The position numbers and the translations under genes are program-made. A DNA stretch of 64,000 nucleotides, from positions 1 through 64,000 of the forward strand of contig NZ_JAVBXR010000124.1 in assembly GCF_030824455.1 (NCBI RefSeq), in the 5' to 3' direction. This document shows positions 7,156 through 55,120 of the stretch, in pieces. The notes below the pieces were generated by a model that made no database searches, was not told the origin of the DNA, and was given only the letters and a program-made list of their open reading frames with translations. Numbering within the stretch: position 1 is the stretch's first letter; each line of letters starts with the position of its first letter. This DNA is from Desulfobulbus sp. (lineage in GTDB: Bacteria > Desulfobacterota > Desulfobulbia > Desulfobulbales > Desulfobulbaceae).

Positions 7156-7845
7156 ATGCTGGGAACCATCGCCAACGCCCTGGCCATCATTGTCGGCGGC
7201 CTGATTGGCCTGTTGTTTGGCAAGGGCATTGCCAAAAAATACAAGCAAACCATCCTCCAGGGGGTGGCGCTGTCGGTGATCCTCATCGGCTGGAAAAGCG
7301 CCCTGGCCGCAGATCAGCTGCTGATTGTGATCGTCTCCATGGTGGTGGGCGCGACCATCGGCGAAGGACTGAACATCGAGGGCAGGCTGGAGAAGCTGGG
7401 CCAGTGGCTGGAAGCGCGGGTTTCCGCCGGCCCCGGCTCCAGTCTGGCACGGGGTTTTGTCACCGCCAGCCTGGTGTTCTGTGTCGGTTCCATGGCCATT
7501 GTCGGTTCGCTGGAAAGCGGCCTGACCGGCAATCACCAGACCCTGTTTGCCAAATCGATTCTTGACGGGGTGATCTCGATTGTCTTTGCCTCGACCCTGG
7601 GCGCGGGCGTCCTGTTCTCAAGCGCAGCGGTTTTTCTCTACCAGGGGCTGATCACCCTGGCGGCCGTTTTCCTCAAACCCTTGCTCGCCGCCGCAACGGT
7701 TGCCCAGATGACCGCGGTCGGCGGCCTGCTGATCGTCGCCATTGGCCTCAACATGCTGGGCATGGTCAAAATCCGGGTGGGCAATCTGTTGCCGGCCATC
7801 TTCCTGCCGCTGGTCTATCATCTCCTTCGCCTCCTGCTGCCCTGA
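7156..7845 (+). CDS. DUF554 family integral membrane protein
   Basis: 229 residues with about seven hydrophobic segments. It matches the DUF554 (YdfK-like) family by its start MLGTIANALAIIVGGLIGLLFGKGI, the GEGLNIEGRLEKLGQWLE loop and the C-terminal VGGLLIVAIGLNMLG...IRVGNLLPAIFLPLVYH segment. The family is thought to be a transporter or channel of unknown substrate. There is no strong ribosome site ahead of the ATG, but the family begins exactly here. It is followed by a separate promoter for the large gene downstream. Confidence 0.8.
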   Translation: MLGTIANALAIIVGGLIGLLFGKGIAKKYKQTILQGVALSVILIGWKSALAADQLLIVIVSMVVGATIGEGLNIEGRLEKLGQWLEARVSAGPGSSLARGFVTASLVFCVGSMAIVGSLESGLTGNHQTLFAKSILDGVISIVFASTLGAGVLFSSAAVFLYQGLITLAAVFLKPLLAAATVAQMTAVGGLLIVAIGLNMLGMVKIRVGNLLPAIFLPLVYHLLRLLLP

Positions 7846-7882
7846 TCTCAAGGCCCCACTGCCGCGCCGCGCAAAACTCCTG

Positions 7883-7911
7883 CTGACTTTCCGGGACAAC
7901 GCATTTACAAT
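7883..7911 (+). promoter_or_regulatory. candidate promoter of the dikinase-like gene
   Basis: CTGACT (7883-7888) and TACAAT (7906-7911) are 17 bp apart and lie about 48 bp before the start of the large gene. The -10 element matches TATAAT at five of six positions and the -35 element matches TTGACA at four of six. Inference from consensus only. Confidence 0.45.
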
Positions 7912-51040: not shown

Positions 51041-52255
51041 TCAGGAAAAAATCACCCGACAGAATCTCCGTTTGCCCACCTTGAGCAGGATCGAGCCAGT
51101 GGCGGGCACAGCCGCGTTAATGTCCTCAACCTTGACGCCGTCAATGGACACGGCATGCTGCTGAATCATTCTCCGGCCGTCGGAGGTTGACTTCACCAAC
51201 CCGGCGTCCATGAGCAGTTTGGGGACCCAAATTTCAGCTTCCGTGACGGCAAGTTGAATCTCTTCGATCTCGTCAGGCATTTCATGGCGGGCGAAAACCT
51301 GCTCAAAGTTGCGCTCCGCATCCTCGGCCGCCGCCTGACTGTGGAAGCGGGCCACCATCTCTTTGGCCAACTGCACCTTGACCGCCTTGGGATGCAACTG
51401 CCCAGCGGCAACCTTTTCCTTGAGCGCGACGATTTCCGCCATGGACAGGTCGCTGAGCAACTCGTAATAGCGATACATGAGATCATCGCTGATCGACATA
51501 ATTTTGCCAAAAATGCTCTCAGGCGGCTCCGAGATGCCGATGTAGTTCCCCAACGATTTGCTCATCTTGTTAACGCCGTCCAGGCCTTCGAGCAAGGGCA
51601 TGGTCAACACCACCTGCGGCTCCTGGCCCCGGCTTCGCTGCAAATCGCGGCCCATCAGTACATTGAACAACTGATCGGTGCCGCCCAGTTCGACGTCGGC
51701 CTTCATGGCCACCGAATCGTAGCCCTGAATCAAGGGATACAAAAATTCATGGATCGAAATCGGGCGGTTGGACTCAAACCGTTTCTTGAAATCATCGCGC
51801 TCCAGCATCCGAGCCACAGTCAGCTCCGACGCCAGGCGAATCATGTCGTGCGAACTGAGTTGCCCCAGCCAGGTGGAATTGAACACCACCTTGGTCTTCT
51901 CCGGATCGAGAATTTTGAAGACCTGCTCCTTGTAGGTTTCGGCGTTGCGTTTGACGTCGTCGGGGGTCAGAGGCGGGCGGGTGTCAGACTTGCCGGTCGG
52001 ATCGCCGATCAGCCCAGTGAAGTCGCCAATCAGAAAATTGACCTCGTGGCCAAGCAGCTGGAAGTGACGCAGTTTTTGGATCAAGACGGTGTGCCCCAAA
52101 TGCAGATCAGGGGCAGTCGGGTCAAACCCGGCCTTGATGGTCAAGGGTTTGTTTGTTTCCAGGGATCTGGTCAATTTTTTCACCAAATCCTCTCTGGAAT
52201 GAAAATCAACGGCGCCCCGCTCAATCAGCGCTATTTGCTCTTCTACCGATTTCAT
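51041..52255 (-). CDS. tyrS: tyrosine--tRNA ligase
   Basis: 404 residues, class I synthetase. HIGH-type motif [13 protein letters not shown], the tyrosine pocket GFDPTAPD and [26 protein letters not shown], and the KMSKS loop [13 protein letters not shown] are present. A C-terminal S4 RNA-binding domain begins near 340. The long form of TyrS (about 400) is usual for proteobacteria of this type. Starts nine bases after the rny stop, so rny-tyrS form an operon. Confidence 0.96.
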
Positions 52256-52264
52256 CCACTCCCC

Positions 52265-53830
52265 CTACTTGGCGTATTCAACCGCTCTGGTTTCACGAAT
52301 GACCGTCACCCGGATCTGCCCCGGGTAGGTCAGTTGTTCCTCAATCGCTTTGGCGATATCGCGGCTGAGCAAGGTGGCTTCTTCGTCTTTGACCTTATGG
52401 CTGTCAACGATGATGCGCAGGTCGCGGCCGGCCTGGATGGCGTAGGATTTATCCACGCCGTTAAAGCTGTTGGCGATGTTCTCCAAATCCTCAAGGCGCT
52501 TGACGTAGCTCTGCAGCATTTCCTTGCGGGCGCCGGGCCGGGCGCCGGACAGCGCGTCCGCCGACTGCACCAACACGTCCAGCACCGACTTGGGCGGCTG
52601 ATCTTCGTGGTGGGCGCCGATGGCGTAGACGATGTCGTCGGCCTCGCCATATTTCTTCGCCAAATCACGGCCAATGACGGCATGCGAACCTTCCACCTCG
52701 TGGTCCACCGCTTTGCCGATATCGTGCAGCAATCCGGCGCGTTTGGCTTTTTTGATGTCCAACCCCAATTCCGCCGCCATCACCCCGCAAAGGAAGGCCA
52801 CCTCCAGGGAATGCTGGAGAATGTTCTGGCCGTAGCTGGTGCGATATTTGAGGCGACCGATCAAGTTAATCAGGTCAACGTGCATGCCGTGGGCGCCGAC
52901 ATCAAAGGTGGCCTGTTCGCCGGATTCACGGATACCGACTTCCAGGTCTTCAGAAACCTTTTGCACCACTTCTTCGATGCGGGCCGGATGAATCCGTCCG
53001 TCGGAGATCAACTGCTCCAACGCCAAACGAGCCACCTCGCGGCGAATCGGGTTGAAACCGGAAAGGATGACAGCCTCAGGCGTGTCGTCGATGATGATGT
53101 CAATGCCGGTTGCCGCTTCAATGGCGCGGATGTTGCGGCCTTCTCGACCGATAATCCGCCCCTTCATTTCCTCGTTGGGCAGGGGCACCATCGACACGGT
53201 TTTGTCAGCGACATAGTCGCCGGCATAGCGGGCAATGGCCAAAGCGAGAATATTCTTCCCTTTGCGGTCCGCCTCCATCTTCATCTCATTTTCAATCCGC
53301 GACAACCGCTTGGCGCAATCCATGCGCGCCTCGCTTTCAATGGATTGCATCAACTGCACCTTGGCTTCTTCGCGATCAATGCCGGCTATTTTTTCCAACT
53401 TATATCGCTGTTCGTCCACCAGGCCGTCCAACTGCTGTTGCTTGGCAACAACCTCGCCCTCGTTGATCTCAAGGCGTTCCTCCCGGTATTTCAGACTGAC
53501 CTGCTTTTCCTCCAAAATCTGGAATTCGCGTTGAATTTCATCGAATTTTCGGTTCAGGCGGCGCTGATCATCCTTGAGTTCCTGGCGACTGGCCTTGAGT
53601 TCGCGATCAGCCTCCTGCTTGATTTGAAACGCCTCTTCCTTGGCCTGGAGCAAGGCCGCTTTTTTTATCTGCTCCGCCTCAGAAATAGCATTTTCTATAA
53701 TTTGGCGGCCCTGCAGGGCAATATTCTTTTGATTCCCCTCCACCAGACGTTTTCGGAGAAGAATCCCCACAGCCAAACCGGCCACCAGATTGACCAGCGC
53801 CAAAAGCAGCGTTGTGACATTGAGTTCCAT
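52265..53830 (-). CDS. rny: ribonuclease Y
   Basis: 521 residues. Membrane-anchored endoribonuclease that initiates mRNA decay. An N-terminal transmembrane helix (about 6-26) is followed by a long coiled coil (about 30-190), a KH domain with [19 protein letters not shown], and the HD domain with [18 protein letters not shown] (metal-binding His-Asp) and [13 protein letters not shown]. The ATG at 53830 was chosen as the family start; AGGTGG lies just upstream as ribosome site. Transcribed with tyrS; a candidate 6S RNA and zapA lie upstream on the same strand. Confidence 0.95.
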
Positions 53831-54234
53831 AAAAACCACCTGCTCTATATATGTGAGAAAGCAGCCAGCCCGCCGGTCTACCGGCTAACGGCATGCGGTG
53901 TATGCAAAAGAAAGGAGGTGGATCCCGAAGGAGGGGGGTGGGGCGCACACAGTCCGCGCGCGACAGAAACGCTGCTTGCAACAGCAGCGACAGGAGACAG
54001 CCTGAACGGCAAACAGCCCGCTCAGCGCAACCCGATGGTTTTCAGCCCAAAGAAAAGCAAGAAATCTATCTGGATCAAACCGCCAATACGGCAGATATTT
54101 TTCCTGATAACAGTCTGTGAGGAGGGTTACTCGCCTATGGTAAACCTGACCGCATCAGAGTTGTCTTTCCATCACCACGCCAACAATGTCCGTGCCCACG
54201 CAACCATCCTCTTTCTGCACTGAAAATGGCCTAT
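53831..54234 (-). other. long leader region of rny
   Basis: About 400 bp without a gene. On the minus strand it holds CCACCTCCTTTC (near 53921-53910), similar to the anti-Shine-Dalgarno 3' end of 16S rRNA, which can pair with the rny ribosome site AGGTGG (53841-53836). A 7-bp hairpin, CGCTGCT/AGCAGCG, lies near 53970-53989. No open frame here looks like a gene. Confidence 0.45.
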
Positions 54235-54447
54235 AAAAAACAGCGGTCTTCCCCGCTGGATAAAAAGACCCCCGCGCCGCCGTGTCAACGAAATGATTAA
54301 ACCTAATACAACTAGGTGGGCAGTGCCCTTGCTGGCGTCTGGAATTCAATAAAGATTTCCATAATCCAGCGCTAAGGCTACCCTTATCGTGCGAGTTGGC
54401 TCAATACTCCGCTGATCACCAACAGAGCAGGGGTACATCATGCTTGT
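54235..54447 (-). ncRNA. ssrS: candidate 6S RNA (ssrS)
   Basis: A promoter-like TATAGT (minus strand, 54459-54454) with TTGGCT 16 bp upstream predicts a start near 54447. A Rho-independent terminator (CAGCGG/CCGCTG stem 54258-54241, then six T) ends it near 54235. The predicted RNA folds as a rod: CAA...AUGAU near the 5' end pairs with AUCAU...GUUG near 54289. Upper pairing GCCUU, GCG and CUGGA matches UCCAG, CGC and AAGGGC around an apical loop. A large 5' bubble (about 35 nt, with a GAGU/ACUC hairpin) sits between. Rod-with-bubble form and location after zapA are typical of 6S RNA, which binds RNA polymerase. No homology search was possible. Confidence 0.55.
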
Positions 54448-54496
54448 GCTTTCACTATACCAGACGCTTGGCGCCAGCCAAACCTCTATTTGCACA

Positions 54497-54784
54497 TCAT
54501 TTGAGGTTTACAGAAACCTTGTCGATCAGGTTGGCGACGGCCTGTTCCTGCGACTGGCGATATTCACTATATTCCCGTTCTAAATGGACATATTTTGCGG
54601 CTATCCGCAAACAGCCCAAAACCAGCATCTTGCTCGAGGGCACGGCGCTCCGGCTCATTTTTTCATTGCTTTCGAGCTCGTGACGAAGCAGGGCGATGAC
54701 TGACTCCACCTCTTCTGCGGGGGCGTCGCTGTAAAAGGCGAAATCCTGGCCGAAAAGATTGAAACGGACGAGACGATCCTGCAT
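54497..54784 (-). CDS. zapA: cell division protein ZapA
   Basis: 95 residues. Binds FtsZ and bundles its filaments. The N-terminal strand pair RLVRFNLFGQDFAFYSDAPAEEVESVIALLRHEL and the helical C-terminus MLVLGCLRIAAKYVHLEREYSEYRQ match ZapA. It follows the coiled-coil ZapB-like gene by 18 bp. The order zapB-zapA-6S RNA is a known arrangement in many proteobacteria and supports the calls here. Confidence 0.9.
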   Translation of the reverse strand: MQDRLVRFNLFGQDFAFYSDAPAEEVESVIALLRHELESNEKMSRSAVPSSKMLVLGCLRIAAKYVHLEREYSEYRQSQEQAVANLIDKVSVNLK

Positions 54785-54802: not shown

Positions 54803-55120
54803 TTAACTATTTTGGCTTTCGGCGTCGCCAGCAAACAACGATCCCTGGGCTCCGCCGACAGTCTCGCTCTTTCCTGTTGCACTTGGGCTTTGCTCGCTCT
54901 CCCACTGCTCAATTCGATCCAGCAGGCCTGCCACCCGATTGCCGACCGCCGTCCGCTCCGTGCTCAAATTAAATATATTGTTTTTCAGTTCTGCACATTC
55001 GGCGTCACGCTGCCGCAAGGTGTCCTGCACAGCATGGTAATCCGACTTGAGTTGATTGTATTTGGTCAACAGTTTATCGACAAACTCCTCCAAGCGAACC
55101 AATTCCGCGTTATTTTCCAT
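54803..55120 (-). CDS. zapB: ZapB-like coiled-coil cell division protein
   Basis: 105 residues. Residues 5-80 form an uninterrupted heptad coiled coil: RLEEFVDKLLTKYNQLKSDYHAVQDTLRQRDAECAELKNNI, ending VGNRVAGLLDRIEQWE. The last 30 residues are polar and disordered. In E. coli ZapB is an anti-parallel coiled coil that links ZapA to the division ring; position directly before zapA supports the assignment. Sequence similarity is low, as usual for coiled coils, so the name rests on context. Confidence 0.75.
   Translation of the reverse strand: MENNAELVRLEEFVDKLLTKYNQLKSDYHAVQDTLRQRDAECAELKNNIFNLSTERTAVGNRVAGLLDRIEQWESEQSPSATGKSETVGGAQGSLFAGDAESQNS

Follow-up and report, generated by a model that had tools for sequence, protein, structure and literature searches.

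A 6S RNA gene between zapA and rny in a Desulfobulbus genome

The window analysed here, a stretch of 64,000 nucleotides (NZ_JAVBXR010000124.1, positions 1–64,000), belongs to a Desulfobulbus sp. genome of 4.03 Mb in 127 contigs, whose Rny is 92–96% identical to Desulfobulbus Rny among the best-scoring matches of a similarity search. From the list of open reading frames, the minus strand carries in order a zapB-like gene, zapA, the 6S RNA, rny and tyrS, so that the RNA shares its strand with both of its neighbours (Table 1). The gene names, that of rny as ribonuclease Y included, are presumed ones taken from the preliminary description and supported by the conserved neighbourhood; the zapB-like gene is presumed to be such from its position. 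On the plus strand, a 989-aa open frame (51254–54223) runs antisense to tyrS and rny and to part of the spacer; it probably reflects the composition of the coding sequence on the opposite strand.

Table 1. Features of the zapA–rny region, in window coordinates
Feature	Position	Strand	Basis
zapB-like coiled-coil gene (presumed)	54803..55120	-	ORF; conserved upstream neighbour
zapA, upstream neighbour	54497..54784	-	ORF; conserved neighbourhood
Predicted promoter TTGGCT-16-TATAGT, extended -10 TGGTATAGT at 54462-54454	54454..54481	-	sequence
6S RNA (ssrS), mature-like, 172 nt	54265..54436	-	RF00013 match and model R1
Presumed pRNA template GAGCCAAC, edge of the 5' central bubble	54395..54402	-	alignment with E. 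coli GAGCCGAU
Predicted release hairpin of the 3' central bubble ACCUAGUUGUAUUAGGU, competing with helix GAGCC/GGUUU	54301..54317	-	conservation and masking fold
Predicted intrinsic terminator, 6-bp stem 54258-54241, then TTTTTT	54235..54258	-	sequence
Conserved element GACAACTCTGATGCGGTCAGGTTTACCATA / GACAAYWCTGATNNNATCAGGTTTACCATA, separate from 6S	54136..54165	-	pattern searches, alignments of relatives
rny (ribonuclease Y, presumed), downstream neighbour	52265..53839	-	ORF; query of the Rny similarity search
tyrS, after rny	51041..52255	-	ORF

A 6S RNA, the small RNA with which many bacteria restrain their main RNA polymerase, had been proposed for this interval from the sequence alone, and the covariance-model search suggested at that time bears the proposal out. 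An Rfam scan of the whole window returned a minus-strand match to the 6S family RF00013 at 54436–54265 that spans model positions 1–187 of 187 and scores 52.8 bits, which exceeds the cut-off of 46.4 bits by only 6.4 bits. It is the single Rfam match above any cut-off in the window and, with E values up to 10 admitted, the sole 6S match in the genome; the refuting outcome named with the proposal, a good match elsewhere and none here, did not arise. A second covariance model, R1, was built solely from A3, a MAFFT alignment of 31 correctly stranded sequences (the window and the 30 relatives with the best 6S scores) in which E. coli was not included. R1 gives 156.5 bits on the minus strand of the window versus 24.3 bits on the plus strand. 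In an unfiltered search of the E. coli ssrS region it places its match at 384–567 (annotated gene, 384–566) with an E value of 1.7e-5. The score for the E. coli gene, 24.1 bits, does not exceed the antisense score in the window, but the minus strand of the E. coli locus yields at most 5.8 bits.

The rod-like RNA with a central bubble that had been drawn by eye is present. The minimum free energy of the minus-strand segment 54448–54232 is -86.9 kcal/mol, compared with -62.5 ± 4.6 for its shuffles (z = -5.29), none of 200 shuffles being equally stable. In A3, whose rows were retrieved with a fold-aware 6S model, so that some lean towards the fold is built in, but which was itself aligned by sequence, the consensus holds 38 pairs. 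Of the cells, 94.5% are paired as against 86.0% in shuffles, and pairing falls to 40–50% of cells when the partners are slid by 1–3 columns. Double changes were counted in 121 cells, versus 39.7 in shuffles, and 20 of the 38 pairs have changed on both sides; none of 500 shuffles matched A3 on any of five covariation measures, and a smaller alignment of 19 rows agrees. The pairing is not due to chance, and the rod around a large central bubble that is typical of 6S RNA has covariation support.

Among relatives the RNA is widespread. RF00013 matches were found in 51 of 55 related genomes, our own included (47 above the cut-off), and in 164 of 247 genomes drawn from the phylum (158 above it), the latter scan having used stricter filters, so that the 83 non-matching genomes may still carry 6S. 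One genome with no Rfam match in the filtered search (G048) has a 6S by R1 at 117.7 bits; two (G020 and G053) have neither an Rfam 6S match nor rny in the assembly, and another (G046, 97% complete) contains rny with no 6S found by R1, either adjoining it or elsewhere. As a side observation, locus L091 has a Thr_leader match at 7779–7885 on both strands that stays below the threshold (38 vs 55 bits).

The neighbourhood is stable. In 74 of 80 named loci retrieved by Rny similarity, R1 places a 6S upstream of rny and on its strand, with a spacer of 381–880 nt (median 520.5; 426 nt in the window). D. elongatus and D. rhabdoformis are among the species that have the gene. Five of the misses (L095, L121, L125, L135 and L140) are contig ends with fewer than 300 nt before the rny match; at the sixth, a genuine miss (L141, Rny only 45% identical), Rfam gave no 6S and the best unfiltered R1 score was an unconvincing 12.1 bits. 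In 72 of the 74 loci zapA is found no more than 600 nt upstream of 6S and on its strand; the remaining two are contig ends. This set overlaps A3 in genomes, and the two are therefore not independent. In the phylum, each of the 30 best-scoring loci (30 of the 164 genomes with a match) has an Rny-like frame after 6S in the same orientation, with an identity of at least 45% in 26 of those 30, by hand count. The preliminary description had placed the gene where ssrS sits in many proteobacteria, and half of that comparison stands. The zapA side is classical, as in the annotated E. coli order zapA-ssrS-fau; the rny side is instead the arrangement of the bacterium's own relatives. The E. coli gene after 6S is fau (ygfA) and not rny. 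In the literature, zapA is noted beside ssrS in beta- and gamma-proteobacteria (PMC7641849), and ygfA is said to adjoin 6S in some delta-proteobacteria (PMC9130861, citing Wehner et al. 2014 and Barrick et al. 2005). Our literature search found no described 6S–rny neighbourhood, and the distribution surveys of Wehner et al. 2014 and Barrick et al. 2005 may contain one.

Both signals that had been read around the RNA, a promoter and an intrinsic terminator, are found on the minus strand (Table 1); the promoter has an extended TG, and the terminator is a 6-bp stem followed by six T. The family model gives a mature-like RNA of about 172 nt with both signals outside it, which by sequence agrees with a free-standing gene for an RNA of the 6S length of about 170–200 nt. 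Transcription from the predicted start as far as the terminator would give an RNA of about 210 nt. The extended -10 pattern TGnTAWAnT stands within 80 nt upstream of 6S in 17 of the 36 loci from Desulfobulbaceae, where mononucleotide shuffles predict 1.0, and in 14 of the 39 from outside this family, where they predict 1.4. A strict hairpin filter, which overlooks visible stems, called terminators in 36 of 75 loci. In loci L097–L137, from several other families, a recurring stretch resembling TATATCCGG follows the T run of the 6S hairpin. It could be argued that the RNA belongs to the rny transcript, as a structured leader or a read-through segment, and is not a free small RNA, given that it precedes rny on its strand in an order that recurs across loci, and that the strict filter called terminators in only 36 of the 75. 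Such a leader is extremely improbable, however, in view of the RNA's own promoter and terminator in the window genome and of a 6S match that spans the whole RNA.

In E. coli-type 6S RNA, pRNA synthesis is described as opening the helix beside the bubble, so that a 9-bp hairpin forms in the 3' bubble and the polymerase is released (PMC8876501, citing Panchapakesan and Unrau 2012). The corresponding parts can be located in the Desulfobulbus RNA. At the presumed pRNA template, the first pattern finds AAC in 68 of 75 sequences; 6 others have AAAC, and the last, L115, reads GGCCAAC. A start opposite the C at 54395 would yield GUUGGCUCAAUACU, with the start site placed to within 1–2 nt. Alignment with E. 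coli U44 favours a start at C42, which would give a G-initial pRNA; an A-initial pRNA is also possible, since 67 of the 68 sequences counted have U after C42. Depending on the choice of first base, the pRNA would begin GUUGGCUC or AGUUGGCUC.

On the other side of the bubble, columns 144–147 and 156–161 of A3 are invariant in 31 of 31 sequences, as are the GG bases common to the helix GAGCC/GGUUU and the hairpin ACCUA...UAGGU. The competition between the two was examined by masking template bases in a folding calculation on naked RNA with no polymerase, which is a consistency check; 73 of the 75 sequences were scored. The release hairpin reached a probability of at least 0.5 in 14 of 73 sequences unmasked, in all 73 once 6, 9 or 13 bases of the template were masked, and in 8 of the 73 under a control mask over 13 bases of the 5' bubble; the values for the window are 0.03, 1.0 and 0.09, respectively. 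In silico, then, all scored sequences form the 3'-bubble hairpin once the adjacent helix opens. In the same calculation the contrast is weaker for E. coli 6S (0.94–0.98 with the template masked) because its hairpin already has a probability of 0.55 with no mask and of 0.8 under the control mask. These features also bear on whether the RNA might bind another form of RNA polymerase, as Ms1 of mycobacteria binds the core enzyme, and not the sigma-70 holoenzyme. The rod with a bubble is common to 6S and Ms1 (PMC9130861), but the family match is to RF00013 only and the RNA shares with E. coli 6S the conserved GAGCC, CCC and release hairpin, which makes such a role very unlikely.

Our results support the reading, to which we assign a probability of roughly 97%, that a Desulfobulbus-like bacterium has its single 6S RNA gene in this interval, with a promoter and terminator of the gene's own, and that polymerase hold and pRNA release proceed as in E. 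coli. Presence, strand, fold, covariation, neighbours and the helix/hairpin competition were computed directly; from these we infer transcription, polymerase binding, pRNA synthesis and release. The RNA would be transcribed from its own sigma-70-type promoter directly after zapA and end at the terminator before rny. Its long rod with an open central bubble would mimic an open promoter and occupy the housekeeping RNA polymerase holoenzyme, most likely at growth arrest. When nucleotides return, the polymerase may copy the bubble edge into a short pRNA, opening the GAGCC/GGUUU helix, and the freed GGU would close the hairpin ACCUA...UAGGU and so lead to release. As far as sequence can tell, the locus has all the defining features of a 6S RNA save for the gene downstream, rny rather than fau. 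It is an ordinary 6S gene, not novel as a system, and its only unfamiliar part is an element in the spacer before rny.

This single-copy element (54165–54136, minus strand) is an imperfect palindrome placed in a 19-bp spacer between a -35-like and a -10-like box, and its core is CTGATNNNATCAGGTTTACCATA (54158–54136). With up to 3 mismatches, the core occurs once in the genome and in 22 of 34 family genomes, in every case downstream of the 6S match and at most 350 nt from it (hand count), whereas outside the family only 3-mismatch matches were seen, in 3 of 21 genomes and on contigs other than that of 6S (hand count); a reversed-pattern control gave 2 matches in 55 genomes. A looser pattern finds the element in 35 of 75 sequences (the window and the 74 loci), L069 has a damaged form of it, and TAnnAT follows a GACA-like box by 19 bp in 27 of 36. 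Such a 19-bp spacing is a feature of MerR-type promoters. Rfam reported no family at the element (one lncRNA at E 4.2), and RNA covariation was convincing in none of three alignments, two of which gave a short CTGAT/ATCAG stem alone and one also a second short hairpin. Judged by its boxes, the element could be the rny promoter; a promoter with an operator, or an RNA hairpin, are possible forms. It may be speculated that in Desulfobulbaceae 6S and rny (RNase Y, RNA decay) form a lasting regulatory pair, in which the element switches rny with growth state, perhaps under the control of 6S or a regulator, but we consider this unlikely.

The result assigns a standard global regulator to sulphate-reducing bacteria of a group on whose 6S our literature search found little. 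The local model R1 recovers a 6S missed by the filtered Rfam search, and the stable 6S–rny neighbourhood can help in the annotation of divergent 6S genes as a landmark; apart from these two points, known biology is confirmed.

The RNA resembles E. coli ssrS (RF00013) in length, in the rod with its central bubble, in the GAGCC...GGUU helix, in the 3'-bubble hairpin and in its position after zapA. It differs from ssrS in its remote primary sequence (24.1 bits with R1), in being followed by rny where E. coli has fau, and in its template, where GAGCCAAC replaces E. coli GAGCCGAU, so that the first base of the pRNA may be G where E. coli has A. B. subtilis 6S-1 RNA is the same kind of RNA, and its pRNA is likewise described as starting opposite a C; unlike the RNA studied here, 6S-1 is reported to be released through a central-bubble collapse helix, without an extended 3' hairpin (PMC8876501). 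Actinobacterial Ms1 RNA also forms a rod with a bubble and binds RNA polymerase, but is described as binding the core enzyme and as having other neighbours (PMC9130861).
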